DNA of 64,000 bases from Sphaerisporangium album. GTDB taxonomy: Bacteria; Actinomycetota; Actinomycetes; Streptosporangiales; Streptosporangiaceae. Each line of letters begins with the position of its first letter. Within the stretch, counting starts at the first letter, position 1. The stretch spans positions 62,001 to 126,000 of the forward strand of contig NZ_QOIL01000005.1 in assembly GCF_003323745.1 (NCBI RefSeq). The letters are read 5' to 3'. This document shows, piece after piece, positions 1 through 15,027 of the stretch. Under the pieces are notes generated by a model. That model did not search any database and had not been told where the DNA came from. It saw only the letters and a list, made by a program, of their open reading frames with translations. The position numbers and the translations under genes were made by a program.

Positions 1-2421
1 GCCGCCGCGGTAGCCGTACAGCAGAGGGGAGCAGTGCAGGTCCGCGATCATCTCGGCGGCGGTGTCCGTGCTGATCGGCGGGACGCGGAAGGCGCGGTCG
101 GCCAGCAGGTCCGCCGTGACGCCGCCCATGCCCGCCATGACCAGCGGGCCGAACGCCGGGTAGTTGACGCCTCCCACGATGATCTCGACGCCCTGGGGCA
201 CCATGCGCTGCACGATCGCGCCGGTCATCGCGGAACCGATGGCCGCCTTCATCTCGCGGTAGGCCCGCCGCACCGCCTCCGGCGAGGTCAGGCCGGTACG
301 GACTCCGCCGACGTCGCTCTTGTGCACGGGGCCGGTCGCCTTGAGCACGACGGGCGGTCCCAGCACGGCGGCCGCCTCGGCGGCGCCCTCGGGGTCCGTC
401 ACGCCGATCGACTCGGCGACGGTCACGCCGTAGCAGCGCAGGAGCCGTTCGGTGGTGGCCGGGTCCAGCCAGCCGCCGTCCGGCCGGGCGGCGAGTTCGG
501 AGCGCACGATGTCCCGGGCGGCGGGCTCGTCGTCCCCGGGGGCGGGCTCGGCGCGGTCCACCGGCGTCCGCAGCCATTCGGCGTACGCCGCGGCGCGGGC
601 CAGGGCCTGCACGGCCTGCTCGGGGAAGGCGTACACGGGGATGCGGCCCTCGATCGTCCCGTCGTGGCCCATCACGCACGCCACCACGGGCTTTCCCGCC
701 GTCCGCGTCGCCTCGGCGATCGCCTTCTCGGTCGCCTCCAGGCCCGATCCGAACGGCGGGGTGTAGACGACCAGCACGGCGTCCACGTCCGGTTCGGCCA
801 GGATGACTTCGATGGCTGTGCCGATCTCCTCGGCGGAGGCGTCGGCGGTCAGGTCCACCGGGTCGCCGAGCGCCGCGGCGGCCGGCACCCGTCCGGCGAG
901 GGCCGGCAGGGTCAGCTCCGGGACGATCAGCCGGTTGCGCTCGCAGGCGTCCGCGGTCATCGCCTCCGGGCCTCCGGAGTTGCCGACGATGGCCACCCTG
1001 CGGCCGGCGGGCAGCGGCTGGGTGGCGAGCAGCCTGGCGGTGTCGAGCATGTCGCGCACGGTGTCCAGGCGGATCACCCCGGCCGCGCGGACCAGGGCGT
1101 CCACGGCGACGTCGGGGGTGGCGGCGGCCGCGGTGTGCGATCGCACCGCCCGCTCACCCGCCCCGGACCTGCCGCTCTTGACGAGCAGGACCGGCTTGCG
1201 GCGGCCGACCCGGGCAGCGATCCTGGCGAACTTGCGCGGGTTTCCGAACGATTCCAGGTAGAGCGCGACCACGCGCGTGGCCTCGTCGTCCTCCCAGTAT
1301 TCGAGCAGGTCGTTGCCGCTCACGTCGGCCTTGTTGCCCACCGAAACGAACGAGGAGACGGGCAGCCGCTCCAGCAGGGCCGCCCCGACCGCGCCCGACT
1401 GCGACAGGACCGCGATGTGCCCCTTGGCCATGGCTCGGGGGAGGAAGCTGGCGTTCATCTGGATCGACGTGTTGACGATCCCCAGGCAGTTGGGGCCGAT
1501 CAGGCGCATGCCGGCCGACCTGCATATCGCCACGAGCTCCCGCTCGGCGTCGCGTCCCCCGTTCTCGGCGAACCCGGCCGTCAGGACCACGAGCCCTTTC
1601 ACGCCGGCCGCGGCGCACGCCCGGGCCACGCCGAGGACGGCCGGCGCGGGTACGGCCACCACGGCCAGGTCGACCGGTCCGGGCACCGCGCCCAGGTCCG
1701 GGTACGCCTGGATCCCCGCGATGTGGGTCGCTTTCGGATTCACCGGGTAGACAGGGCCGGGGAAGCCTCCGCTGATCAGGTTGCGCAGCACCTTGTGCCC
1801 GGTGGCCGACGGGTCGCGGCCCGCGCCCACGACGGCGATGGAGCCGGGCGCCAGCACGCGCGCCAGCGACGCCCGCTCGGCCTCGTGATCGCGGATCGCG
1901 ACGCTTTGGAGCAACCGGTCACCGGGGGCCAGGCTGACGCGCAGACGCACCAGCGCGCCGTCGTAGTTGAGCTCCAGCGGGAGCCCGAAATCGTGAAGAA
2001 CCCCGAGCATCGCGTAGTTCTCGGCGAGCACCTCGCCGGCCAGCTTCCGCACGCCGGCCGCGGCGGCCCGGACGGCCAGGTGCTCCAGCAGCAGCGTGCC
2101 GAGCCCCACCCCCTGGACGGCGTCGTCGACGAGGACCGCCATCTCCGCGACCGCCGGGTCGGCTGTGGGCGTGTACTCGGCCACGGCGACCGGCCGGTCG
2201 TGGACGGTAGCGACCAGCACGAGGCCCTCGTGACCCGGACGGGTGATCCGGTCCACGTGGGCGTGCGCCGTTCCCCGGCCCCCGGTGAAGAAACGGAGGT
2301 ACGCCGACCGCTCCGACGCGCGGTCGGCGAGCTCGTGCAGGGAGGCGCGGTCGCCCGGCGCGAGCGGGCGCACGTGGGCGATGCCGCCGTCACGCAGCAG
2401 GACGTCGCATTCCTCGGACAT
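1..2421 (-). CDS. GNAT acetyltransferase / ADP-forming acyl-CoA synthetase fusion (3' end outside window)
   Basis: The reverse-strand frame is open from an ATG at 2421 to the window edge (807 codons). Residues about 1-170 are a GNAT domain, with the acetyl-CoA loop near the run VQGVGLGTLLLEHL. A CoA-binding Rossmann domain follows from about residue 185 (SIAVVGAGRDP), then succinyl-CoA-ligase-like domains including RSHTAAAA, then an ATP-grasp region with GPVVLKATGPVHKSDVGG. The visible end, SPLLYGYRGG, is typical of the ATP-grasp tail, so roughly 80-100 residues should lie outside. Such fusions are Pat-like protein acetyltransferases or ADP-forming acyl-CoA ligases in actinomycetes; which activity applies here is unknown. 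Upstream DNA carries two DosR-like boxes, suggesting hypoxia or stress control. Confidence 0.85.
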   Translation of the reverse strand, partial: MSEECDVLLRDGGIAHVRPLAPGDRASLHELADRASERSAYLRFFTGGRGTAHAHVDRITRPGHEGLVLVATVHDRPVAVAEYTPTADPAVAEMAVLVDDAVQGVGLGTLLLEHLAVRAAAAGVRKLAGEVLAENYAMLGVLHDFGLPLELNYDGALVRLRVSLAPGDRLLQSVAIRDHEAERASLARVLAPGSIAVVGAGRDPSATGHKVLRNLISGGFPGPVYPVNPKATHIAGIQAYPDLGAVPGPVDLAVVAVPAPAVLGVARACAAAGVKGLVVLTAGFAENGGRDAERELVAICRSAGMRLIGPNCLGIVNTSIQMNASFLPRAMAKGHIAVLSQSGAVGAALLERLPVSSFVSVGNKADVSGNDLLEYWEDDEATRVVALYLESFGNPRKFARIAARVGRRKPVLLVKSGRSGAGERAVRSHTAAAATPDVAVDALVRAAGVIRLDTVRDMLDTARLLATQPLPAGRRVAIVGNSGGPEAMTADACERNRLIVPELTLPALAGRVPAAAALGDPVDLTADASAEEIGTAIEVILAEPDVDAVLVVYTPPFGSGLEATEKAIAEATRTAGKPVVACVMGHDGTIEGRIPVYAFPEQAVQALARAAAYAEWLRTPVDRAEPAPGDDEPAARDIVRSELAARPDGGWLDPATTERLLRCYGVTVAESIGVTDPEGAAEAAAVLGPPVVLKATGPVHKSDVGGVRTGLTSPEAVRRAYREMKAAIGSAMTGAIVQRMVPQGVEIIVGGVNYPAFGPLVMAGMGGVTADLLADRAFRVPPISTDTAAEMIADLHCSPLLYGYRGG

Positions 2422-2843
2422 GGCAGCTCTCCAATTCGACGGCAGGACGACGAGGCGACCACGGGAGGGCCGGGCTCGACCCTGAGGCGGTCATCACGTC
2501 TCCTTCGGAAGTCCACCGCCACGGTCTCGTCCGCGGCCTGTGGATGGCAGTGCCGGAGGGCCCGCACGAGCGGGACTTTGGTCCGCCGGCGGCCACGGCG
2601 AATCGGCGTCGCCCCGCCCGAGCTGCTGGTGTCGCGCCGTCCGGGCCGCGGAAGGACGAAAGTCCCGGCGACGAAGGGACCTCCGCGCCGCCGGCGTGAG
2701 CCGTACAGCACTCGGAGCAGGGCCCGGGAAACGTTGTGCTGGCGCATACCGAACCGTCGCATCGGCAACATCGACAGCATGGAAAGGGGCCGACGAAGGC
2801 CACCACCGAAGGACGACGGCACTCCGCTCCCATTTCCCCCGTC
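2422..2843. other. Intergenic region, 422 bp
   Basis: This is the divergent spacer between the GNAT/acyl-CoA synthetase and the DoxX-like gene. Apart from the two DosR-like boxes I see no gene or hairpin. The open frames crossing it are high-GC shadows without recognisable domains. Confidence 0.6.
2572..2666. promoter_or_regulatory. Two DosR/DevR-like boxes
   Basis: GGGACTTTGGTCC lies at 2572-2584 and GGACGAAAGTCCC at 2654-2666. The second is the reverse complement of GGGACTTTCGTCC, so the sites are two near-identical partly palindromic boxes in opposite orientation. They resemble the DosR/DevR dormancy-regulon box. They sit between the GNAT/acyl-CoA synthetase gene (start 2421) and the DoxX-like gene. 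Assignment is by motif resemblance only. Confidence 0.5.
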
Positions 2844-3356
2844 ATGGACGCCGGCTCCTCGCGGGCGGTCACCGGTCCCGTCGATCACGTCTGGGCCGTG
2901 GCGCGGATCGCCCTGGGCTGGATCTTCCTGTGGGCCGGCCTCGACAAGCTCTTCGGCTGGGGCTTCGCCACCCCCGCCGACCGTGCCTGGATCCACGGCG
3001 GCAGCCCGACGACCGGCTTCCTCACGGGCACCGGCGACCACGCCCTCGGCGGGTTCTTCTCGGGCCTGGCCGGGCAGCCGTGGGTCGACTGGCTGTTCAT
3101 GATCGGACTGTTCGGCATCGGCCTCGCGCTGGTCGCGGGCGCCGGGCTGCGGATCGCCGCGGCGACCGGCGGACTGCTGCTGGTCCTGATGTGGGCCGCC
3201 GAACTGCCGCTGACCACCAACCCCTTCCTCGACGAGCACCTCGTCTACGCCGTCGTGCTGGCCGGCCTGGCCCTGGTCTCGGCCGGCGACACCTGGGGCA
3301 TCGGCAGGTGGTGGGGCGACACCCCCATCGTGCGCAGACACCTCATCCTGAAGTAG
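2844..3356 (+). CDS. DoxX-family membrane protein
   Basis: The 170-residue product has about four hydrophobic segments. The first contains VARIALGWIFLWAGLDKLFG, the typical DoxX opening; later ones include WLFMIGLFGIGLALVAGAG and IAAATGGLLLVLMWAAELPL, and the conserved ending region NPFLDEHLVYAVVLAGLAL follows. DoxX proteins are small integral membrane proteins linked to respiratory or redox functions; the exact role is unknown. The ATG at 2844 is chosen because similarity starts just after it, although no good ribosome site precedes it and an upstream in-frame ATG at 2736 is possible. It is divergent from the acyl-CoA synthetase and may share the DosR-like boxes. Confidence 0.75.
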   Translation: MDAGSSRAVTGPVDHVWAVARIALGWIFLWAGLDKLFGWGFATPADRAWIHGGSPTTGFLTGTGDHALGGFFSGLAGQPWVDWLFMIGLFGIGLALVAGAGLRIAAATGGLLLVLMWAAELPLTTNPFLDEHLVYAVVLAGLALVSAGDTWGIGRWWGDTPIVRRHLILK

Positions 3357-3535
3357 GCAGACTCCCCGCAGTGCCCATCCGGCACCGGATGGGCGCTGCG
3401 CCGGAGAACCTCAGATGGTCAACGAGCTGGGCGATCCGGGCATCGGTAGTGCCGCCGGCGGCGCGGCACAGGGTGCGATGTCGTGGGGTCCGGCGGCGGC
3501 GGTGCCGCTGGGCGCGGCCGGTCCGGTGCGCGGGG

Positions 3536-4215
3536 TCATCTGGGTTTCACGCCCGGACCGAGGATGGAGGGACGGCTCGACAAAAGACGTGCCGGCCCCG
3601 GCGGCCGACCACCTGCCAGCCGGCCCGAACCGGTCGGCGGCGTCTGGGAGGAGGGGTTTCGTCGCGTGGGGGCCTCGCGCGGCCACCGAGACGAACCTCG
3701 ATCATTTATCACGCGGCTGGCCGGGGGGAAGCGTGCGACGAACCGCGCCCCAGACGGGCTGTCTTCGAGGGTGAGGGTACCGCCATGATCTTCGGCGATC
3801 TGCCGGGCGATCGGCAGGACCAGGCCGCTGCCGCCGGTGTCCTTGGCGCACGCGTCTTGCAGGCGGGCGTAGCGCTCGAAGATGATCTCCCGCTGCTCGC
3901 GCGGCACCCCGCTCCCGTCGTCGTAGACCTCCAGCACCGCCGCGTCACCCCGGTGCTCGACGGTGACCATGACCACGGAGCGGGCGTGGCGTTCGGCATT
4001 GTCCATGAGGTTGTGCAGCAGCCGGGTGAGACCGATCCGCTCTCCGTAGACCATCACGCCGCTACTGAACCTCCTGACCGCCCCTATCTTGCTTTGCCGA
4101 TGGTCGAGCTCGCCGTCCACCAGCACGGCGAGGTTGAGGAGGTCGTGCCGGCCGATGACACCCGCCTCAAGCCGGGAGATCTCCCGCAGGTTGGTCACCA
4201 AGTCCTGCAGCCGGG
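3536..4215 (-). pseudogene. Sensor histidine kinase C-terminal fragment
   Basis: The frame encodes the end of a HisKA dimerisation region (LQDLVTNLREISRLEAGVIG) followed by a complete ATPase domain. The N box is LLHNLMDNAERHA, the G1 box YDDGSGVP, the F box IFERYARLQ and the G2 box GGSGLVLPIARQIAEDHGG. Everything N-terminal to the dimerisation helix is missing: sensor, HAMP and the phospho-accepting histidine. Reading upstream, the kinase sequence stops at about 4215, where a different frame encodes the start of an ISL3 transposase. The tail after VARFPPA does not resemble a kinase. This is a broken remnant, not a working kinase. Confidence 0.75.
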
Positions 4216-4343
4216 CAGGGTGCAGGCTCTTCCCGAGTACGGGCCACGACCCGAATGAGGTCGTTCTCGTCCGCCACATCCTCGATGACCAGGTCAGACA
4301 ACCCTGAGAACACCGCGCCCACCAGGTCGTTGATCTTCAGCAC
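4206..4343 (-). pseudogene. ISL3-family transposase N-terminal fragment
   Basis: From a GTG at 4343 the reverse strand reads VLKINDLVGAVFSGLSDL, then VIEDVADENDLIRVVARTRE and PAPCP. This is the recognisable N-terminus of ISL3-family transposases, leading to the first cysteine of their zinc motif. Only about 46 codons remain before the sequence runs into the histidine-kinase fragment in another frame. No terminal repeats or catalytic domain are visible. Confidence 0.6.
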
Positions 4344-4518
4344 GCCTCAGGCTGGCAGGTGATCACTGACCGCTACCACCGATTACGGGACAGAGCCGTT
4401 CGCTGGACAGACCCCTGCCGCGTGCCTGGCAGATGTCTGACTTTCGGATCAGGCGAGGGGAAGCTGTTGGAGGCGCCTATGTGCTCCGACCAGCGCTGAC
4501 ACTGAGCAGCCGTCCCCC

Positions 4519-6561
4519 TCAACTGGTGGCGACGATGCCCCCCAAACCGGCTAGACGTAGGGCCAGATTCCGGGGTGAGTCGATCAGCTTGTGGCGACCC
4601 TTGGTGGACTCAAGCGCGGCCACGACGGGACTCGACAAGAACGCGATCAGCTCGTCCACTTCCTGCCGGGACGGGCGGGGAGTGAACTCCTTCCGTAGGG
4701 CATAGATGATGTTCTCAACGCTGATGTACCCGTCATCGACGGGGTCCTCGTCCACGGCTTCCTGGAAGGCCAGGTCGATGATCCTACGCATCAGTAGTGA
4801 GCGCCGCTCCAGCGCCTGGTACCGCTCGGCCAGGTCGTCGCTGAACGTGTCGATGCGGGAGAAGGCATCCCGCAGTTCGGTAAGGGGCATGGGGTTTCGC
4901 GAGTGTTGGTCGAGCAGCGTGGCAAGGTCCTCGATGCGTAGAAGAATGACCTCGTTCTCCGCCGCCCAGTTCTTGAGCCGTGGAGCGAAGTCCGGCCCGA
5001 CGACGACCACGTGATCCGCCTTGTGTTTGCGCTTGTGGTCACGCAGCGCATCGAATTTGACGTCGGACTCGGCGACTTGGCCGCTCCCTGAGCTCTTCGC
5101 GTCAACGATGATCCGGTAGCGATCCTTCGTGGCCAGCTGCGCGATGCCCAGGACGTCCGTGCGGCCGGAGCCGCCGAGGTGCTCGGCCTGGAAGCCGAGG
5201 AAGGCAAAGGCTTGAGCGACGGCCTCCTCGAAATCCCGACTGTCCGTGCCGACATTGCCGTACTGCCGCAGCTGAGCAATAACCGCCGCGGGTACCGAGG
5301 CAGGGGGCGCGCTCTGCGGTCCTGCGGGATCGATACCCTCCAGCTCTGCTCCGACGGGCAGCTGAAGTGTCAGGTTCTTGGTGAAACTCCGGCCGGCTGC
5401 AGTGACACGGAACCGTTGCCAGTCGACCCGCTCGACGAGACCCGCGTCCTGGAGGAAGGAGAGCCGGAGACGGACCTCTCCATTCGACGCCTGGGTGTAG
5501 CCGTACACATCCTTTGCCACAGCCACCAGCGTCGAGGTGGTCGCAGACTTACCCAAGTGGCACAGGATCTCACCGAAGAACAGATACCGCGCATGCAGAT
5601 GCGCAGCGAGCAATCGCTCGTTCCCCTCGTCGACGAGTCGGTGCGCGTCCTCACTCGGTGCAAAGTGGTTGAACGACGTCTGCTCGACGAGTCCGGTGTG
5701 TCGCAGGGCGTGCATCATCGAGGTGAAAGACGCCTTGCTGATGCCGAACTCGCTGCTGCACTGCTCGCCGAACTCCTCGAGCCCGGTACCGTCGGCCAAC
5801 AGGGCCACCAGCCTGCGCAGGGCGGCGGTCGCAGTCAGAGTCGAGTCCCCGTCGCGGTTGTCGGAAGCGTTCCCTCGGGGGATATAGCCGATCAGAGCGC
5901 GACGGTTCCTCAGATCGACCTGCTCCAACTGTAGGGAGTCGTCGAAGAACGCTAGCTGCCCCTCTTCGTCACCGTCCGATTCGGCGGCCTCCTCTTCTCC
6001 TCGGGCGCTTTCGGGTGGGCAGAGCGGAAGAACCCCCAACAGGGCGTCCCCCCGCTCGGTCCTCACGACCCTCTGGCCCCACAGCTCGACCATTCCCAGG
6101 CTTCTGAGCCATCCCGTGCGGTCCCGCACGGGTGACAGGCTTGCCCAGTTCAGCCCGTAGGTCTTCGTTGCCACCTCTAACAAGTCCGCGTGTTTCGTCT
6201 GATTTCCGATCGCCAGGAGGAGCTCGCCGATGAACTTCACGTTAGCGTGCAGGTGAGCGGCCAGGAAGGAGTTGTCCTTGTTCTCCAGCCATTGCTGCGC
6301 GTAGGCGCTCGGCTGCCACTGGCCTCCGCCCAACCGCTCGGCGAGGCCCGGATTGGAGAGCACCCGCCGGCACAGATCCTCGCAGCGGGCGCTGATGCGC
6401 TTCCCCTCCGATGTCTGCCACTCCAGCAATTCCGCGCCGTCGCACGGCAGCTGAACAAGCACCTGTCGGAGTAGGTCCGCCTGGACTTCCGTACCGCCTT
6501 GGATGTAGCCAAGTGAGTTGCTGCGATTACGCCACTGCTTGGCGGGTACGGGCTGACGCAT
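4519..6561 (-). CDS. FokI-like PD-(D/E)xK nuclease with duplicated N-terminal module
   Basis: This 680-residue protein is probably a DNA endonuclease. The catalytic domain begins near DFEEAVAQAFAFLGFQAEHL. It contains the run GRTDVLG (Asp469) and RIIVDAKSSGSGQ (Asp487, Lys489), a D-x17-D-x-K layout very close to the FokI cleavage domain. The N-terminal half carries two related modules, seen as SFLAAHLHANVKFIGELL near residue 98 and LLAAHLHARYLFFGEIL near residue 315. Each is followed by a winged-helix-like stretch (KTYGLNWASLSPVRDRTGWL; KDVYGYTQASNGEVRLRLSF). They may recognise DNA or a partner. The ATG at 6561 is chosen because AAGGGGAG lies just upstream. No methyltransferase accompanies it. 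It is divergent from the caspase-kinase gene. Confidence 0.75.
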   Translation of the reverse strand: MRQPVPAKQWRNRSNSLGYIQGGTEVQADLLRQVLVQLPCDGAELLEWQTSEGKRISARCEDLCRRVLSNPGLAERLGGGQWQPSAYAQQWLENKDNSFLAAHLHANVKFIGELLLAIGNQTKHADLLEVATKTYGLNWASLSPVRDRTGWLRSLGMVELWGQRVVRTERGDALLGVLPLCPPESARGEEEAAESDGDEEGQLAFFDDSLQLEQVDLRNRRALIGYIPRGNASDNRDGDSTLTATAALRRLVALLADGTGLEEFGEQCSSEFGISKASFTSMMHALRHTGLVEQTSFNHFAPSEDAHRLVDEGNERLLAAHLHARYLFFGEILCHLGKSATTSTLVAVAKDVYGYTQASNGEVRLRLSFLQDAGLVERVDWQRFRVTAAGRSFTKNLTLQLPVGAELEGIDPAGPQSAPPASVPAAVIAQLRQYGNVGTDSRDFEEAVAQAFAFLGFQAEHLGGSGRTDVLGIAQLATKDRYRIIVDAKSSGSGQVAESDVKFDALRDHKRKHKADHVVVVGPDFAPRLKNWAAENEVILLRIEDLATLLDQHSRNPMPLTELRDAFSRIDTFSDDLAERYQALERRSLLMRRIIDLAFQEAVDEDPVDDGYISVENIIYALRKEFTPRPSRQEVDELIAFLSSPVVAALESTKGRHKLIDSPRNLALRLAGLGGIVATS

Positions 6562-6931
6562 CGGCTCCCCTTCACTGCGGTGCTCGTGTTTCTTTCTGAG
6601 AGTAGAGGGAGCTGCTGACAATAACGACACAGCGTCGCTCTACTGAGCGACCTGCTTCGATCTTCGCGCCTGGACCTCCACTATGCCTCGGTGGAGGAAG
6701 GACAACGATCCCGAGACTTCGCCACGTGGCGCCCTACTCTATTTTGGCTGGACGAAAGACTATTAATTGTCTAACCGAAATTGACATCGTTGCGATCGCG
6801 TTACGATATGTCCCGCACATCGCTAAACAAACGCCAAGTGACGTAATGTCCACTTCTCTCACCATCTGTGATGTTGCGAGTCCATACGGTGAGCCTGGAC
6901 CGCTCTAACGGTACGAGCACGGGAGATTGAT
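6562..6931. other. AT-richer divergent intergenic region
   Basis: This 370-bp spacer separates the nuclease and caspase-kinase starts. Its base composition is clearly lower in GC than the rest of the window. It has a candidate promoter at 6781-6809 and no convincing gene; the 60-codon frame at 6726 matches no family I recognise. Confidence 0.5.
6781..6809 (+). promoter_or_regulatory. Candidate sigma-70-type promoter for the caspase-kinase gene
   Basis: A perfect TTGACA at 6781-6786 is followed after 17 bases by CGATAT at 6804-6809, a weak -10. It would give a leader of about 115 bases before the TTG start at 6932. Confidence 0.3.
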
Positions 6932-9178
6932 TTGGGAACTCGACTAGCGCTTGTTGCGGGAATCAGTGCCTACTCTGGCAGGTGGACTGCGCTTAGCAGC
7001 TGCGTCAACGATGCTGACCAGGTGGCCGAAGCGCTTACTTTGCCGGAGTACGAGTATCAAGTGACCCGCCTCACTGATGAAGAAGTGACAAAGGCGGAGA
7101 TTCTTAGATGGCTGATCGAAGCAAGGACATCGGGCGCCGAACAGATTCTCTTCTATTTCGCGGGGCATGGCGCTGCTACACAGCTAGGCACATACCTTGT
7201 CACGTACGACAATAGTGAGTTCGATGAAGGCGTACTTCTATCCGACTTAATAAGGATTGCGGATCCCGATGCTGGCTCTAGAACTCAGGTCTTGTTCCTG
7301 CTGGACTGCTGTCACTCTGGTGGCGCTGTCTCGGGGACCTCATCTGCAATTCTTAGAATACGTAGCCTTAATAACGCAGATGTAAGTCAGGTAGTGCAAC
7401 GCATGGATCCTTCCATTGCCGTTATAGCAGCCTGCGCCGAGGATCAGCGAGCTTGGGAGGTCAGCAACCTGGGACACGGTGTCTTCACATATTACCTCCT
7501 CTCAGCACTACTAGGGGATGCTGCAGATCATACAGGCTCAGTTACCGCACACAGCATTTATGACGTGATTTCTCGAGAGATGGACTCGAGAGATGGACAT
7601 GAACAAGTTCCAATCTTCGGCGGTAGGATCCAGGGACGAATGGTACTGGGCCAGCGCCTGACTCCTTCTCTGTCTCCCCCGCGCCCGGAAGAGGAATATG
7701 CTCGCTACGAAAGAGAGGCGCAAAGTTTCCTGGACGGCTACAACAGCTTCAAAGCGCAGTTCAACCTAGAGTCCTGGCGCACCGATGGATATTTCTCCGC
7801 TTGTAGAAAACTAGAGGACATCAGTAGATGGTTCGAGAAGAAAGATCAGATCGAAGGAATGTCCACCCGTAATCTCTATAAGAGATCAAGGGAAACGCTA
7901 GTCAGATACCAAGCCGAGCTGGGCATGGTCGAAACTGGTACGCGATTGAGGTGGGGAATTCTGGACGAACAAATAGGTGCTGGCGGCTTTGGCAAGGTAT
8001 GGAAGGTGGCGTCCGGAGGCGGGAATCTTTTAGCATATAAGCTCTACCATGCATACGAATTACATGACAAGGAGAAAGTTAGGCGCTTCAGAAATGGGTA
8101 TGATGCCATGCGTATGCTGTCTGATCCGCGCATTGTGCAAGTTTATGACTATAGCGATTGCCCTCCTGGCTTCACAATGGACTATATTGATGGCAGCAAT
8201 CTCCGTGAACTCAGCTTAGCAAACTTCATGGACCCGGTTGATATCTTCGCCATCTTGCATCAATCTGGAGAGGCCATCGAGCATGCCCATCGCCATGAGG
8301 TGATACATCGTGACATCAAGCCAGAAAATATCATTTGCAGCCTCGAAGAAGGGGGCGACTATCGCCCATACCTGACCGATTTTGATCTTGCGTGGTTCAG
8401 CACGCAGACGCAGAAGGCGACGAAGACTGCCATGGGGGTCGTCTACTACGCAGCGCCAGAGCAGTACATTGCTTTCGATCCAAAGATCGCGCGTAGTAAG
8501 AATCCGACTCTGGATGTCTTCTCTTTTGGGCAGCTCATGTACTTTTGTTTGACAGGAAGAGACCCGGATCCGCTCAACATCGAGAGCAACAGTAACTATC
8601 TTGGACAAATACTAGCACGTCGGTGCCCCACCAAAACCGCAGCTATGGCTATCGCCCTATACAAGGAGTGCACTCAATTCGACTCCTCCAAGCGCGTTCA
8701 GAACTTTTCTCATATAGTGGGAAGCATAGGGGAGATAACTCAAGAACTCACCCACAGCAGCACAGAAACATCTATCAGCAGGGAAGAGTACAGTGCAGAA
8801 CTTGCATTCCAGATGACACGAAGCCTCCGATCGGGCGAGCCCTCAACAACTTTCGTCAATGCGTCGGGCGGCTGGCAGGTTTCAATGGAATGGAAGGAGC
8901 GAGCGCATAAGCGGAGTTCCGTTCCCGTGCTTTCAATGCATATCAAACCAACGCGCCGTATGTCTCTTGAGAACGTCGCCAATGAGCGCATGAGAACTAT
9001 CCTTAACCGTCGAATCGACAGCGCGATCAGTTCTTATGCGGCGCGCGCCCAACGGCATCCAGGGAGAAGGGGCGACTTTGAATTCTTCCTTGAATGGCGC
9101 CTAGACAAAATAACCAGGGCTGACGCGTTGGTGCTGAGCGATATTCTGCGATCGATATTCAGTTCTCTAGACGCCTGA
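6932..9178 (+). CDS. Caspase-like protease fused to a Ser/Thr protein kinase
   Basis: The 748-residue protein joins two signalling enzymes. Residues about 1-245 form a caspase-fold (peptidase C14) domain: LALVAGISAY at the start, catalytic His79 in FYFAGHGA and Cys127 in LLDCCHSGG. A helical, charged linker covers about 255-345. A protein kinase follows: glycine loop GAGGFGKVWKV (about 349), Lys370 in AYKLY, HRDIKPEN (Asp461), DFD in place of DFG (Asp483) and YAAPEQY. The last 140 residues match no family I know. It starts at TTG 6932 with GGGAG six bases upstream. GC content is visibly much lower than in its neighbours, which points to transfer. By analogy with other bacterial caspase-like effectors it is probably part of a defence or cell-suicide system; that role is inferred. 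Confidence 0.85.
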   Translation: MGTRLALVAGISAYSGRWTALSSCVNDADQVAEALTLPEYEYQVTRLTDEEVTKAEILRWLIEARTSGAEQILFYFAGHGAATQLGTYLVTYDNSEFDEGVLLSDLIRIADPDAGSRTQVLFLLDCCHSGGAVSGTSSAILRIRSLNNADVSQVVQRMDPSIAVIAACAEDQRAWEVSNLGHGVFTYYLLSALLGDAADHTGSVTAHSIYDVISREMDSRDGHEQVPIFGGRIQGRMVLGQRLTPSLSPPRPEEEYARYEREAQSFLDGYNSFKAQFNLESWRTDGYFSACRKLEDISRWFEKKDQIEGMSTRNLYKRSRETLVRYQAELGMVETGTRLRWGILDEQIGAGGFGKVWKVASGGGNLLAYKLYHAYELHDKEKVRRFRNGYDAMRMLSDPRIVQVYDYSDCPPGFTMDYIDGSNLRELSLANFMDPVDIFAILHQSGEAIEHAHRHEVIHRDIKPENIICSLEEGGDYRPYLTDFDLAWFSTQTQKATKTAMGVVYYAAPEQYIAFDPKIARSKNPTLDVFSFGQLMYFCLTGRDPDPLNIESNSNYLGQILARRCPTKTAAMAIALYKECTQFDSSKRVQNFSHIVGSIGEITQELTHSSTETSISREEYSAELAFQMTRSLRSGEPSTTFVNASGGWQVSMEWKERAHKRSSVPVLSMHIKPTRRMSLENVANERMRTILNRRIDSAISSYAARAQRHPGRRGDFEFFLEWRLDKITRADALVLSDILRSIFSSLDA

Positions 9179-9621
9179 CATCTCCAGATGTATGGCGCTC
9201 TACAGAAGAGGCGCAAGCGGGTCTGAGGCTTTTGTGTCCTGATTAGTGGAATCTGAAGGACGAAGTTGGCCCAAGACGAGGCCACTTGAGTGAGATGCCG
9301 CTGCTGCATCGGCCTGTTGATTCGATGGCAAGGCCCGACGAAGGAGGGCTGCGGCAGCCGATCACCAGCCCTATGTTGCGAGTACCGGAGTGAGCGATCC
9401 CTACCTTCTTTCTGGGGCGTCCGAACCGGTCGTAGGGTTCTGACACGCCAAGGGTGTCGGGCGTGGCTGTGAGCGATCTGCCGTCCGTGGCTCGTGACGA
9501 TTGGCCACCTGGCACCTACGACGACTCGGCCGCTGATTGAGAATTGCGAGCTCATCGCTGTGTAGGGATGCGCCGGCGAGGTCGTCCACGGGACCGCCAA
9601 CAACGACCGGAGGAGACGACG
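9179..9621. other. Non-coding region upstream of the IS110 transposase
   Basis: This 443-bp stretch between the caspase-kinase stop and the IS110 transposase has no credible gene. IS110-family elements carry a long non-coding end before the transposase that in studied members (IS621) encodes the bridge RNA. Part of this region is therefore probably the left end of the element. I cannot place the exact boundary or fold the RNA by eye. Confidence 0.4.
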
Positions 9622-10798
9622 TTGCAGCGGGTGTGGGCCGGAGTGGACATCGGCAAGAACCACCACCACGCGGTGGTGATCGATGCGGAGGGAAAGCGAC
9701 TGCTGTCGCGGCGGGTAGCCAACGACGAAGCTGCCCTGAGCGGGCTGTTGACCGAGGTCAGCGCGCTGGCCGATGGTGATCTGGGCCGTTGACATCATGA
9801 CCGGCGGGGCGGCACTGCTGCTGGCGGTGCTGCTTGGCCATGGCCAGCAGGTGCTGTACATCTCCAGCACCATGGTCAACCGCGCCGCCGACGGCTACAG
9901 GGGAGCGGGCAAGACCGACGCTAAAGGCGCCGCGATCATCGCCGACCAGGCCCGGATCCGGCGGGATCTGGTCACGCTGCGTCCCGAGGGCGAACTGATC
10001 ACCGAGTTGCGGATGCTGGTGGCCCGCCGCCAAGACCTGGTGGCCGATCGCACGCGCGCGGTCAACCGGCTGCGCGACCAGCTCCTGGCCATCTGCCCGG
10101 CGCTGGAACGCGCGCTGGATATGACCAACAAGGGACCATTGGTCCTGCTCACCGGCTATCAGACTCCTGCGGCCATTCGCCAGGCGGGCCAGGCAGGCCT
10201 GGAGGCGTGGCTGCGCCGCGGTGCGAGCGAGCTGGCCGCGCGAGCGTTCCAGGCGGCATCTGCCCAGACCATCACGGTGCCGGGAGAGCTGGCGGCTGCA
10301 CTGCTGGTGGCCCAACTTGCCACCGAGCTCATCAGGCTCAATGAGCTGATTGACGACGTGGACACGCTCATTCAGGACCGGTTCCACCGCCATGATCTTG
10401 CCGAGTTCATCATCAGCATGCCCGGCATCGGTGTCCTGCTGGGCGCCGAGTTCCTGGCCGCTACCGGCGGCGACATGAGCGCCTTCGCCTCGCCGGACCG
10501 CCTGGCCGGCTATGCATGACTCGCCCCCGTTCCCCGCGACTCTGGGCGGATCAGCGGCAATCTGCACCAGCCCCGCCGCTACAACCGCACCCTGAACCGC
10601 GTCTTCTACACCTCGGCCCTGGTCAGCATCCGCCATCACCCCGCGTCCCGCGCCTTCTATGAGCGCAAACGCTCCGAAGGCAAGGTCCACACCCGGGCCG
10701 TACTAGCCCTGGCCAGACGACGGGTCAACGTGCTGTGGGCACTCATCCGCGACCGGCGATGCTACGAGGCAACCCCACCGCTTCCTCAGGCCGCATAG
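9622..10798 (+). mobile_element. IS110-family transposase, inactivated
   Basis: The product starts at a TTG (9622) behind GGAGGA and reads LQRVWAGVDIGKNHHHAVVI, the RuvC-like opening of IS110 DEDD transposases. The frame shifts near 9775 into WAVDIMTGGAALLLAVLLGH. The run KTDAKGAAIIADQAR follows, where the usual second acidic residue of DAKDA is glycine. The C-terminal domain includes MPGIGVLLGAEFLAATGG. An in-frame TGA at 10517-10519 interrupts LAGYA-LAPVPRDSGRISG; the same frame then runs through NRTLNRVFYTSALVSIRHHP to TAG at 10796. With a frameshift, a nonsense codon and a lost acidic residue it cannot be active. It bounds the nuclease/caspase island. Confidence 0.85.
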
Positions 10799-10877
10799 CT
10801 TGATCGCCTTGACAACCTCATTGAGAATCGTCACCGGGGTGTTCGCCCCGAGGTGTGGACACCGGCTGTAAAGCAGC

Positions 10878-13643
10878 TCACCCCTTCGCCTTCATCCCCC
10901 GGAGGGGGCTTCCAGTCATCCATGATTGCGGCGTCTCGATAGGAGGAGCAGGCGGGACCGCGTCGGTGGGTGCGGGCGGGACTGCGCCGGCGGGCCAGGG
11001 GCGGGCGTTCAGGGCCTCGAGGGCCTGGCGGGCCATGGCTAGCTTCTCGTAGACGAACAGGACCGGGTGGCCGGCGGCCATCGTGACCGCGATGCGCAGG
11101 GCGGCCTGCGGTCCTTCGGCGGTGGCGAGGCCGATGCCGGGCCGGGCCCGGCGCATGGCCGCGGTGATCAGGCCGGTCATCTCACCGGGCCGGCGGCCGC
11201 GCTTGTCGGCGTCCTCGTAGACGACGACCCGGCCGAACCACGCGGCGACGGCCTCGGCCGAGCGGGCCACCAGGTCGTCGCGGCGGTCGCCGGGCAGCGT
11301 GATCGCGGCCACGGGCTCGCCGCCCCAGACATCGCTGATCATGCGGCCGGTCGCGTCGAGCGCTACGGCGTTGTGGCCGTAGTCCACGATCACCGGGCCG
11401 CCGCCGGCCAGGTAGACGTGGCCGCGCCCCGGGTTCGACTCGCCCGGCGTGAACGTGCCCAGCGCGCGCCGGATGTCCTTGGCGCTGACCCCGAGCCCGC
11501 GGCAGGCCGCCACCGCGGCCAGCGCGTTCGCGATCACGTGCGGGGCGAGCCCGCCGAACGCGCCGGGCACCTCGACCACGCTGAGCAGCGCCCGCTCCCG
11601 GTCCGCATCGAACTCGACCAGCTCGCCGTTGCGAAGCTCGTAGGCCAGGCCGCCCGCCTGCCGGTGCCGCTCGATGACCGGGTTGCCGTTCACCAGGCTG
11701 AAATACCTGATCACGGACGCGTGCCTGCGCACCCGCGGCCGGTCGGCGAGCGCGGCGACCACCGGGTCGTCGGCGTTCAGCACCACGGTCCCGCCCTCGC
11801 GAACCTCCTCGGCGACCAGCGCCTTTACCTCGACCAGCTCGTCGAGATCTTCCACGCCGTCCGCGCCCAGGTGGTCGGCGGTGATGTTGGTGACCACGGC
11901 CACGTCGGCCTGGTCGTAGCCGAGCCCACCGCGGATGATCCCGCCGCGCGCCGTCTCCAGCACCGCGGCGTCGATGCTGGTGTCGTCGAGCACCATGTCC
12001 GCGGACCGCGGACCCGAGGCGTCGGCGTCGTAGACCAGCCGGCCGCCGGAGTAGACCCCGTCCGTGGTGGACATCCCCACCCGCATCCCGGCCTTGCTCA
12101 GGATGTGGCCGATCATGCGGACCGTCGTGGTCTTCCCGTTGGTCCCGGTGACCGCGACGACCGGGACCCGAGATGGGGCGCCGGGCGGGTACAGGCTGTC
12201 GATCACCGCGCCGGCCACGTCCCGCGGCGCCCCCTCGGCCGGGGACAGGTGCATCCGCAGCCCCGGGCACGCGTTGATCTCGATCACGGCCCCGGGCTCA
12301 GCCCCGCCGTGACCGGCCCCGCCGCACCGCATCGGTGCCGCGATGTCGGCCAGCCGCACGTCGATGCCGCAGACGTCCAGGCCGACCACGGCCGCGGCCC
12401 GGCGGCACACGTCGGCCACGTCCTCGTGCACCAGGTCGGTCACGTCGCGGCTGGTTCCGCCGGTGGACAGGTTCGCGTTCCGGCGCAGGGTCACGAGCCG
12501 GCCGCGGGCCGGGACCGACGCCGGGCCCAGGCCCTGGGCCTCCAGGTGCGCGAGCGCGCGCTCGTCCAGTTTGATCTTGGTCAGCTCTCGGGAGTGGCCC
12601 TCACCCCGGCGCGGGTCGGCATTCACCACGTCGACGAGCTGGGTGATGTCGGAGGCGCCATCGCCGGTCACCGAGGCCGGCCGCAGCTCGGCTGCGGCCA
12701 CCACCTGGCCGTCGACCACCAGCACCCGGTAGTCGGTGCCGGGCACGAACTTCTCCACGATCGCGCCCTCGCCGCCGGCCGCCGCCTGGGCGTAGGCCGC
12801 GGCCGCGGCCGCGGCGGTGGTCACGCCGACGGTAACGTTGGCACCGTGGCTGCCGTGGAGCGGCTTGATCACGACCGGCCCGCCGAGCCGGCCCAGCGCC
12901 CCGGCGGCGTCGGCCGCGCTCCAGGCCACCACCCCATCGGGCACCGGGATGCCCGCGTCGGTCAGCAGCTGTTTGGCCAGCATCTTGTCGGCCGCGATGT
13001 CCACACCGATCACGGACGTCTGCTCGGTCAGCGCGGCGCACACCAGCCGGCGACAGCGCCCGTAGCCGAGCCGCAGCATGCTCAGCCGGCCGACCCGGCG
13101 GACCGGTATCCCCCGGCGGCGGGCCGCGCCCGCGAGCGCGGCCGTGCTCACGCCGAGGCGCTCCCGCTCCACGACCCGAGCGATCCTGGCCAGTTCGAGC
13201 GGCAGGTCGGGGATGCGTTGAAGAAGAATGTGCTCGACCGTGGTGATGGCCAGTTCCAGCAGCTCGGCCGGCACCGAGGACTGCGCGGGCTCGTCCTGCG
13301 GGCATTCGGTCATCACGTCGTAGCGGCCGTCGGCGCCGGCCCACATGGTCCGGCCCAGGTACACGTCGCGGCCCACCAGACTGGACAGCTCCAGCGCCAC
13401 GTGCTCGGTGACGTGGCCGAAGTAGGTGCCCCGGGCCATCGCCTCCAGGAACCCGCCCGGGCGCCCGGCCGCGCAGTGGTGCTCGGCCAGCCCGGGCAGG
13501 GCCGCGGTCAGCCGGCCGGCGAAGCCCGGGTACTCGGTGGTCTTCCGGCCGGTCAGCTCCTCGAGCTCGAGCCGCGCGACGGTGACCGGCCGGGTGCTGA
13601 ATGAGTTGGGTCCGCTCAGGTGACGCAGGTCGTCGAGACGCAC
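10878..13643 (-). CDS. cphA: Cyanophycin synthetase
   Basis: The enzyme polymerises aspartate and arginine into the nitrogen-storage polymer cyanophycin, using ATP. The 921 residues show the family order: an N-terminal domain (RPVTVARLELEELTGRKTTE), an ATP-grasp domain that activates the carboxylate (VVIKPLHGSHGANVTVGV; IEINACPGLRMHLSP), and a C-terminal Mur-ligase-like domain with P-loop VAVTGTNGKTTTVRMIGHI, then TTDGVY and DNITADHLG-type runs. The GTG at 13643 is preceded by GGGGAG at good spacing. It lies 44 bases downstream of cphB on the same strand, so the two probably form one operon that makes and degrades the polymer. Confidence 0.92.
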   Translation of the reverse strand: MRLDDLRHLSGPNSFSTRPVTVARLELEELTGRKTTEYPGFAGRLTAALPGLAEHHCAAGRPGGFLEAMARGTYFGHVTEHVALELSSLVGRDVYLGRTMWAGADGRYDVMTECPQDEPAQSSVPAELLELAITTVEHILLQRIPDLPLELARIARVVERERLGVSTAALAGAARRRGIPVRRVGRLSMLRLGYGRCRRLVCAALTEQTSVIGVDIAADKMLAKQLLTDAGIPVPDGVVAWSAADAAGALGRLGGPVVIKPLHGSHGANVTVGVTTAAAAAAAYAQAAAGGEGAIVEKFVPGTDYRVLVVDGQVVAAAELRPASVTGDGASDITQLVDVVNADPRRGEGHSRELTKIKLDERALAHLEAQGLGPASVPARGRLVTLRRNANLSTGGTSRDVTDLVHEDVADVCRRAAAVVGLDVCGIDVRLADIAAPMRCGGAGHGGAEPGAVIEINACPGLRMHLSPAEGAPRDVAGAVIDSLYPPGAPSRVPVVAVTGTNGKTTTVRMIGHILSKAGMRVGMSTTDGVYSGGRLVYDADASGPRSADMVLDDTSIDAAVLETARGGIIRGGLGYDQADVAVVTNITADHLGADGVEDLDELVEVKALVAEEVREGGTVVLNADDPVVAALADRPRVRRHASVIRYFSLVNGNPVIERHRQAGGLAYELRNGELVEFDADRERALLSVVEVPGAFGGLAPHVIANALAAVAACRGLGVSAKDIRRALGTFTPGESNPGRGHVYLAGGGPVIVDYGHNAVALDATGRMISDVWGGEPVAAITLPGDRRDDLVARSAEAVAAWFGRVVVYEDADKRGRRPGEMTGLITAAMRRARPGIGLATAEGPQAALRIAVTMAAGHPVLFVYEKLAMARQALEALNARPWPAGAVPPAPTDAVPPAPPIETPQSWMTGSPLRGMKAKG

Positions 13644-13687
13644 GTGACACTCCCCAAGGGTTGGGCGGATGGGCGGGCTGGCGGTGA

Positions 13688-14515
13688 TCAGTACCGGTCG
13701 TGCGCGGGCCCGATGGTGGCCTCGCGGGTCGCGATGTCGAAGACGCACCCGGCGGGCAGCAGGTGCAGCCGGACGCCGAACAGGGTGATCGGGTCTTCGT
13801 CCCCGGCGGCGTGGATGACCGTGGCGTTCCGCCCGTCAGCCACCGTGGCCACGCCGGTGCCGAGCACCTCGAAGCGGGTGCCGTCGACCAGGATCCCGGT
13901 GTTCTCGCCGATGCCGACGCCCAGGTACTCCAGGTCGAGCGCCATGGCGCTGAGCAGCCGGGGGAGCCGGCCGCGCTCGCTGAAGTGCATGTCGATGATG
14001 AGCGCCTTCGGGAGCAGGCCGAGCCCGGGGCCGGTGCGGACCGTGGCGGCGGACACGCCGGGGCCTTCGCCGCCGAGGATCATCGTGCGGCCCATGGCGG
14101 TGGCGCCGGCGCTGGTCCCGGCGATGACCGCGCCGCCTGCGCGCAGCCGGTCGCGCAGGATCTCGTTGGCCCGCGAGCCGACCAGGGCGCGCAGCCGCGA
14201 CTGGTCGCCGCCGGAGAAGAACACGCCCGTGGCGTCGTCGAGGAGCTTGGCCGCGTTGTCGCCGTCGGCGTCGGAGCGCCCGCGCAGCCGCAGTTCCCTG
14301 GTGTGGTCCACGCCGAGCTTGCGGAACACCCGCTCGTAGTCGGCGTGCACCTCCTCGGGCGCCCCGGTGGCCGTAGTGACCAGCACGATCCGGGCCGCCT
14401 CCCCGCCAGACAGCTCCACGAACCGCTCGAGCAGGCCGGAACCGCGGCACTCGGCGCCCCCGATGATAAGCAGGCGGCCCGGATCACCAGGTTTATCCCC
14501 TTCGTCCGCGTCCAT
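13688..14515 (-). CDS. cphB: Cyanophycinase
   Basis: This serine peptidase of the S51 family hydrolyses cyanophycin to beta-Asp-Arg dipeptides. The 275-residue protein opens with GRLLIIGGAECRGSGLLERF and carries the nucleophile in AGTSAGATAMGRTMI; FFSGGDQSRLRALVG upstream and LLPKALIIDMHFSERGRLPR downstream are also typical. Its length matches the family. The ATG at 14515 is preceded by GAGGAGGGA. It is the first gene of the cphB-cphA operon. The upstream 500 bases contain no gene. Confidence 0.92.
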   Translation of the reverse strand: MDADEGDKPGDPGRLLIIGGAECRGSGLLERFVELSGGEAARIVLVTTATGAPEEVHADYERVFRKLGVDHTRELRLRGRSDADGDNAAKLLDDATGVFFSGGDQSRLRALVGSRANEILRDRLRAGGAVIAGTSAGATAMGRTMILGGEGPGVSAATVRTGPGLGLLPKALIIDMHFSERGRLPRLLSAMALDLEYLGVGIGENTGILVDGTRFEVLGTGVATVADGRNATVIHAAGDEDPITLFGVRLHLLPAGCVFDIATREATIGPAHDRY

Positions 14516-14740
14516 GCTCCCTCCTCGACCAGTTGTTACCCTTAGGCGTCGAATATCATCCGAGAGCAACCAGTTCGGCCCGTATAGGCCGGTTTGGGAG
14601 CGCGGGTGCTCGCGTTACTCGGAGCGCAGGGCGCCGCGGACGTGCCGGCCGTGCCCCGGGCCCGGAGCGCTGCCTGGACAGCTCCTCGGGCAGCTACCGC
14701 GCACCCTGCCCGCACCACCACCAACCCCAGCGCGCACGCG

Positions 14741-14880: not shown

Positions 14881-14931
14881 ACGTGGTCAGGGGCGGGGTC
14901 GAACCGCCGACCTTCCGCTTTCAGGCGGAAC
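14881..14931 (-). other. tRNA-like 3' half (remnant)
   Basis: On the minus strand a clear T-arm is present: GGCGG-TTCGACC-CCGCC, followed by CCTGACCAC like an acceptor 3' strand. It is preceded by TTCCGC-CTGAAA-GCGGAA, like an anticodon arm but with a six-base loop. No D-arm or 5' acceptor strand follows, so it is not a working tRNA. It could be the scar of an integrated element at a tRNA 3' end. Confidence 0.4.
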
Positions 14932-15027
14932 GATCACCCTGCTCCCGCGGCCCCGATGCCAGCGGTGCTGCTCGGATGTGGACGCGCGCTCACGGTGGCT
15001 GATGTTGTCGTCAGCGTTGTCGTCACA

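Follow-up and report, generated by a model that had tools for sequence, protein, structure and literature searches.

A rare, compositionally foreign gene joining a caspase-like protease to a protein kinase: a possible bacterial suicide effector

Background

Type IV Thoeris, reportedly the subject of Rousset et al. 2025, is among the described systems closest to the gene analysed here. It is an anti-phage system in which an N7-cADPR TIR signal activates a caspase-like protease and the proteins of the cell are degraded; SIR2 NADases have been described as the effectors of type I Thoeris (both from excerpts of PMC12847820). In 12 of 443 cases CapK has been found with CapS upstream of type IV Thoeris (PMC13373217, excerpt). 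CapK is a GHKL kinase acting on transcription and hence serves only as an earlier example of a kinase controlling systems of this kind. In the two-gene EACC1-caspase conflict systems auto-proteolysis has been proposed to deploy variable C-terminal effectors standing behind a constant N-terminal caspase, and "signaling enzymes" are among up to 50 C-terminal domains fused to such caspases (PMC7159879, excerpt). In canu (caspase-nuclease) loci a caspase with an Ig-like fold can activate, in defence, a nuclease encoded downstream (PMC12799240, excerpt). For bacteria with complex development, a part of metacaspases in cell death and in signalling has also been discussed (PMC3501461, excerpt).

The present work concerns a single gene in a 64,000-nucleotide stretch of DNA (the window) in which a caspase-like domain and a protein kinase are encoded on one chain. 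In the text of the literature searched, some of it in excerpt and with figures outside the scope, no caspase-kinase fusion system was recognised, in line with the original prediction, which knew of no described system of exactly this layout; the layout may be drawn in Fig. 2 of PMC3501461 or Fig. 7C of PMC7159879.

Results and discussion

Architecture of the fusion protein

The gene is an open reading frame of 748 codons with a TTG start, preceded at a distance of 6 nt by the motif GGGAG (by eye). Its parts are as follows.

6932-9178 (+): caspase-kinase fusion gene, 748 aa, TTG start
6932-7651 (+): caspase (Peptidase_C14) domain, residues 1-240; Pfam match at residues 3-229, E 4.8e-19
7166-7168 and 7310-7312 (+): codons of His79 and Cys127 in the caspase domain
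7652-7951 (+): linker of about 100 aa, residues 241-340, of no known family, with an invariant W300-F301
7952-8731 (+): Hanks-type kinase, residues 341-600; Pkinase match at 345-590, Pfam E 1.7e-28; aligned by HMMER to StkP and 7naa
Within the kinase: G-loop, Lys370, Gly389 (in the place of the alphaC-Glu), Asp461 of HRD, Asn466, Asp483 and Asp485 (DFD)
8732-9175 (+): C-terminal tail, residues 601-748, of no known family, the fastest-evolving part

Both Pfam matches exceed their gathering scores. The intact caspase-like domain with His79 and Cys127 and the kinase with Lys370, Asp461 and a DFD variant (483-485), both foreseen in the original prediction, were thus found at these positions, and all these residues are invariant in the six family members described below. 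The His/Cys dyad lies inside the Peptidase_C14 domain, as in C14 proteases. Among the hallmarks of Hanks-type kinases the G-loop, the beta3 Lys, HRD, the Asn and the DFx Asp are present, while the alphaC-Glu and the Gly of DFG are absent, their places being taken by Gly389 and Asp485 in 6/6 members. The fusion is the only Peptidase_C14 match in the 9.3-Mb genome to which the window belongs. Asp27 and Asp125 of its caspase align with Asp residues of the solved metacaspases MCA2 and metacaspase-4. The corresponding residues form part of the S1 pocket in MCA2, where they select for a basic P1, and on that ground cleavage after Arg or Lys is predicted.

The tail of about 150 aa (about 601-748) had been called unassigned, and it has remained without a significant match in Pfam (best E 0.15) or in the PDB (best E 0.79; best for the linker 0.12). 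As a known or shared domain the tail has been rejected: a search of 396 genomes returned three with a match, namely the window's own and two with weak matches, at E 2.5e-4 and 3.0e-4, which lie across other genes called on the opposite strand and were judged to be due to chance. When profile HMMs of the tail and the linker were run against 5431 ORFs of 204 loci, only family members matched at E 1.

An unusual kinase subtype

Gly389 occupies the place of the alphaC-Glu in the HMMER alignment and DFG has become DFD, both changes being common to all six members. Among 134 aligned kinase rows, a set biased by the use of LTDFDLA[YW] as one of the patterns with which loci were collected, 112 have Glu with DFG and eight have Gly with DFD; two more have DFD without the alphaC column, three combine Gly with a motif other than DFD, and the remaining rows show other combinations or gaps. 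The eight are the six fusions and two further proteins:

L044, 9329-12007 (+): Myxococcota protein with pentapeptide repeats, a Gly/DFD kinase and a calcineurin-like phosphatase (metallophosphatase) domain
L117, 3324-5846 (+): SIR2-kinase of 840 aa with alphaC-Gly/DFD, on the viral contig IMGVR_UViG_3300000504_000060

The coupled change suggests a switch that would work without the usual Lys-Glu bridge. That Asp485 compensates for the lost alphaC-Glu is a guess, and the loss could mean a weak or inactive kinase.

The SIR2-kinase (SIR2_2 E 1.8e-14, Pkinase E 1e-21) resembles the fusion in having an N-terminal effector-type domain, the same kinase subtype, a tail of similar length and an AT-rich gene in GC-rich DNA (GC 0.436 against 0.687 in the flanks). 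It differs in having SIR2 in place of the caspase, and homology of the two tails is unsupported, 25 of 200 shuffles having scored as high. Its only viral relative is itself; in the 15 of its 66 plasmid matches that were listed the kinase region is covered and the SIR2 part is not. The kinases of G697, G442, G411, G589 and G523 (profile A7) have by eye the alphaC-Glu and DFG and do not belong to this subtype. A two-gene counterpart of the fusion is seen in L121 (5746-7604, +, an IMG/VR contig), where kinase and caspase are separate overlapping genes and the kinase has DFG.

Like the defence kinases MAD6, PD-T4-6, Stk2 and PglW, the fusion carries a kinase of the Hanks type, MAD6 being its best PADLOC match (E 1.2e-35). 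Unlike them, its kinase is joined to a caspase, and NF047741 (MADS6) scores 102.7-112 bits in the three members tested against a cut-off of 460.

Kinship of the caspase with TIR-caspase operons

The caspase domain matches 99 plasmid records. Twenty of these loci were opened, hand-picked rather than random (four with low scores or odd features, the others chiefly high scorers of differing genera), and in 16 of them a TIR gene lies directly upstream; 15 of these genes are annotated as such and the sixteenth, annotated as hypothetical, matches a TIR HMM at E 5.6e-56. The loci without TIR are those of Runella, S. clavuligerus, Nostoc and a Rhizobium helicase fusion. By gene content the plasmid TIR-caspase operons match type IV Thoeris. 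The larger operons L195 and L202 have a second TIR gene before the caspase gene and a small ORF and a metallophosphoesterase gene after it; TIR, caspase and metallophosphoesterase are also present in L191.

Profile comparison of the fusion caspases with those of the TIR operons gave a match of 248 columns with a probability of 100% (E 2.1e-44) that fades past the caspase domain, and on such sequence evidence the homology of the two is firm. The likeness to type IV Thoeris extends over about 245 residues, with an identical His/Cys dyad and a pair of conserved Asp. In place of the C-terminal module of about 80-100 aa carried by the type IV Thoeris caspase, the fusion has the linker, the kinase and the tail; hhalign against the operon caspases found no match for the linker (probability 0.1%, which rules out that it is their C-terminal module) or for the tail (0.4%). 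The fusions also differ in lacking a TIR gene in the stretches searched: at E 10 none was found near the six loci (16.6-21.4 kb each, and 1-30000 of the window) with an HMM built from 15 operons, for which the hypothetical gene mentioned above served as the control.

When the window caspase is the query, the 16 caspases of the TIR operons rank ahead of 11 of the 12 others compared, and the twelfth, that of Runella, falls among them. For each of four further members used as query, at least one caspase from outside the TIR operons is interspersed with those of the operons: that of S. clavuligerus for queries G478, L019 and G204 (for G204 together with others), and those of the Rhizobium helicase fusion, Runella and the viral L129 for the Amycolatopsis query. 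In phylogenetic trees the 16 TIR caspases form a clade that excludes the fusions (100/99 in the first tree, 99/96 in the second). Five fusions group weakly (80/77) in the first tree; G204 joins the Nostoc protein on long branches, outside the fusion group in the first tree and inside it in the second. All six fusions as one clade were not rejected (p-AU 0.275). Fusions and TIR caspases as one clade came out 6.0 log units worse (p-AU 0.118), or 4.2 worse without G204 (p-AU 0.33), so that by these trees, composed of caspases other than the EACC1 type, a joint clade is neither favoured nor rejected.

Comparison with EACC1-type caspases

The EACC1-caspase systems, reported to be prevalent in actinobacteria, share with the fusion an N-terminal caspase followed by a differing C-terminal domain. 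Their proposed auto-proteolysis offers a reversed order of events, in which a triggered caspase would cut the linker and free the kinase as a weapon that phosphorylates host or phage proteins. The NCBIfam model caspase_w_EACC1 does match the fusion caspase (E 1.3e-21), and defence-family kinases of PADLOC match its kinase. The match is nevertheless one of 73.8-77.1 bits in 3/3 members tested (of six), 77 bits against the NF047832 cut-off of 140, and the four TIR-operon caspases tested score higher (91-114 bits). Four upstream ORFs gave no match to the EACC1 membrane protein in Pfam, the copy of which we presume to hold an EACC1 model; a rough ORF caller places the ORF nearest upstream in L019 and in L101 on the other strand. 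The linker that would have to be cut has four columns with Arg or Lys in at least four of six members, none of them strictly conserved. We consider this reversed order somewhat unlikely.

Family, distribution and selection

A search for the same domain order in actinomycete genomes, as the original prediction had proposed, yielded five full-length relatives with 27-33% identity to the window protein, and both active sites are kept in all six. They come from Amycolatopsis pittospori (L018), Streptomyces torulosus (L019) and three genomes of the window's class (G478, G770 and G204). The family has at least six members, since the first two were drawn from the best 80 of 561 relatives in a scan of GTDB contigs. 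When the loci collected were scanned for ORFs with the motifs of both active sites, these six alone were found. Carriers, the own or centre genome included, numbered three of 394 genomes in the class, two of 396 in the phylum, two of 150 in the window's family and one of 35 in the family of G478 (G478 itself), counts that come from overlapping samples with different queries and thresholds and are not additive. The first search of genome contigs, with a single protein query, gave no match, and when the full fusion was sought in phages and plasmids, no match extended over 80% of the query. The distribution of the gene is rare and patchy.

The closest pair, L019 and G770, has caspase domains of 70% and kinase domains of 75% identity and is joined in the first caspase tree (98/88), whereas the window protein and that of G770, from the same family, share 37% and 42%. 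Such closeness against such distance agrees with horizontal transfer, provided that Streptomyces belongs to a family other than the window's. For the closest pair pS is 0.87 and pN 0.21 overall, which together with the five full-length homologues argues that the ORF is not due to chance; by region pN is lowest in the kinase (0.16), followed by the caspase (0.20) and the linker (0.24), and highest in the tail (0.31). Judged from these rates, the caspase and kinase domains are under purifying selection, and the tail is the part that evolves most quickly, which would suit a sensor.

The original prediction that the base composition differs sharply from that of the flanks holds when GC is computed per gene. 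The fusion gene has a GC of 0.516 (GC3 0.550) against 0.698 in its flanks, and the lowest value among 26 other window genes (at least 150 aa and GC3 above GC1, a filter that the fusion gene itself fails) is 0.637, that of the neighbouring nuclease gene. The fusion gene is compositionally foreign. Gene GC is 0.509 in L018, 0.510 in L019, 0.557 in G478, 0.597 in G770 and 0.732 in G204, with flanks of 0.66-0.74, so that five of the six members are AT-rich relative to their surroundings and G204 is the exception.

These distributions bear on a further explanation, by which the fusion would serve a multicellular bacterium in the signalling of programmed cell death or of development and would not be an anti-phage protein. 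The discussion of metacaspases in developmentally complex bacteria speaks for it, as does the failure to find a common defence neighbourhood of the fusion loci. One would expect a protein of development to be retained; in nearly all of the relatives sampled, the five genomes of the same genus in the family sample among them, no fusion was found, and the gene has a foreign composition and occupies different chromosomal sites. A developmental role seems to us quite improbable.

Neighbours of the six loci

No neighbour common to the six loci was found. The expectation that homologues would sit in defence islands has mostly failed: of 21 neighbour proteins scanned with PADLOC, a subset of all neighbours, 19 had no match and two did, the Mrr-type nuclease of the window and, with a weak match (mad8, E 1.5e-6), an AAA protein encoded in L018 of Amycolatopsis. 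A DUF6338 gene adjoins the S. torulosus fusion, and DUF6338 genes are also present in 3/16 TIR-caspase stretches:

L019, 10953-11654: DUF6338 gene beside the S. torulosus fusion
L174, 1850-2524: DUF6338 gene
L186, 2725-3309: DUF6338 gene
L201, 3633-4361: DUF6338 gene

In a TIR-caspase operon stretch of Proteus the DUF6338 gene follows tnsE of a Tn7-like element.

The site of the G478 fusion (L014 7775-12351, with L172 and L173) was considered as a defence hotspot, which is unsupported: seven congeners were searched and two had long flanks on both sides. Between flanks of 91-94% these two carry different cargo, in G705 a kinase-AAA-GAF-GGDEF protein of 1676 aa and in G501 two small ORFs with no Pfam or PADLOC match.

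Proposed function

The explanation that we prefer, and that may quite possibly though not probably be correct, is that one horizontally moving gene encodes a complete suicide effector, a Thoeris-IV-like protease whose switch is a kinase instead of TIR signalling. The N-terminal caspase-like protease would be the killing part, and the linker, kinase and tail would form the switch in place of the TIR signal. The protease would be kept in check in a resting cell until a trigger, which is probably phage-related and is probably perceived by the fast-evolving tail, switches the kinase on; the kinase would phosphorylate its own or a partner chain and so release the protease, which would cut proteins after Arg or Lys and stop the cell before phages multiply. 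The defence role, the trigger, the direction from kinase to caspase and the basic P1 specificity are what we infer here, and a defence function as such is plausible. The fusion would accordingly be classed as a variant of the caspase-based bacterial suicide proteins and not as type IV Thoeris.

Several lines of evidence argue for a suicide effector: the architecture and active sites kept in 6/6 members with low pN in caspase and kinase; the homology to caspases from operons with TIR upstream in 16/20 plasmid loci; the fusion of the same kinase subtype to SIR2, a Thoeris effector type, in an AT-rich gene; and the rarity and patchiness of the gene, with DUF6338 both beside one fusion and in TIR-caspase stretches. 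Against it count the failure to find TIR near the six loci and the 19 neighbours without a PADLOC match; trees that do not place the fusions as sisters of the TIR caspases, and non-TIR caspases that rank among the TIR ones; the unstable position of G204 and its composition, which is not AT-rich; the lost alphaC-Glu; and the lack of a recognisable sensor in linker or tail.

More widely, and with still less confidence, the data could point to a modular one-gene immune class with the alphaC-Gly/DFD kinase as common switch and N-terminal death effectors (caspase, or SIR2 in L117), in which phosphorylation rather than a cADPR-type messenger would gate effector types best known from Thoeris; this generalisation we regard as doubtful.

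In animals, kinases and caspases are linked in death circuits, for example the RIP kinases with caspase-8. If the suicide-effector reading is true, a caspase wired to a protein kinase on one chain would be a compact version of such circuits, and Thoeris-type effectors would be separable from TIR signalling and could be placed under phosphorylation. Whether a kinase switches a protease in a bacterial death programme becomes a question that two point mutants in one gene could address directly.

Immediate surroundings in the window

The genes and borders nearest to the fusion gene are the following.

4519-6630 (-): divergent neighbour gene, 703 aa, Mrr_cat at residues 463-573 (Pfam E 7.6e-8; PADLOC REase_II 8.4e-7), GC 0.64
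9544-10519 (+): remnant of an IS110-type transposase in two frames, ending inside Transposase_20 (pieces searched apart)
10994 (no strand): synteny break relative to G871

The nuclease gene and the fusion gene stand head-to-head, 301 bp apart, and might form a pair in which the protease or the kinase activates the nuclease, as in the canu loci, with which the fusion would share a caspase-based defence. The Ig-like caspase, the partner subunit and the gated nuclease are features of canu; here the nuclease is of the Mrr type and divergent rather than downstream. No relative of it was found in the stretches of the other five fusion loci, where the Mrr type was sought with phmmer and the control was found, and the two genes are unequal in composition (0.64 against 0.52). 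Such a pair is very improbable. Among 149 other genomes sampled one, G861, has a relative of the nuclease (E 1e-20); that gene is also AT-rich (0.55) and lies near a transposase-like ORF (by eye). The window nuclease itself shows by eye two similar stretches in its N-terminal half.

In a comparison of 19.5 kb with G871, the nearest congener found among ten others in the genus, 10994-14609 matched with 94.7% identity and nothing matched further left, while 1-10900 of the window matches G871 on other contigs only; position 10994 is for this reason taken as the edge of a rearrangement or insertion. The left edge was not found. Around the fusion gene no convincing repeats were seen, and promoter and terminator scans gave counts no higher than in shuffles. 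At 14883-14958 (-) ARAGORN reports a tRNA-like match with an undefined anticodon, probably spurious. To the left of the nuclease gene, at 3536-4279 (-), lies a HATPase_c C-terminal part of a histidine kinase that looks 5'-truncated.
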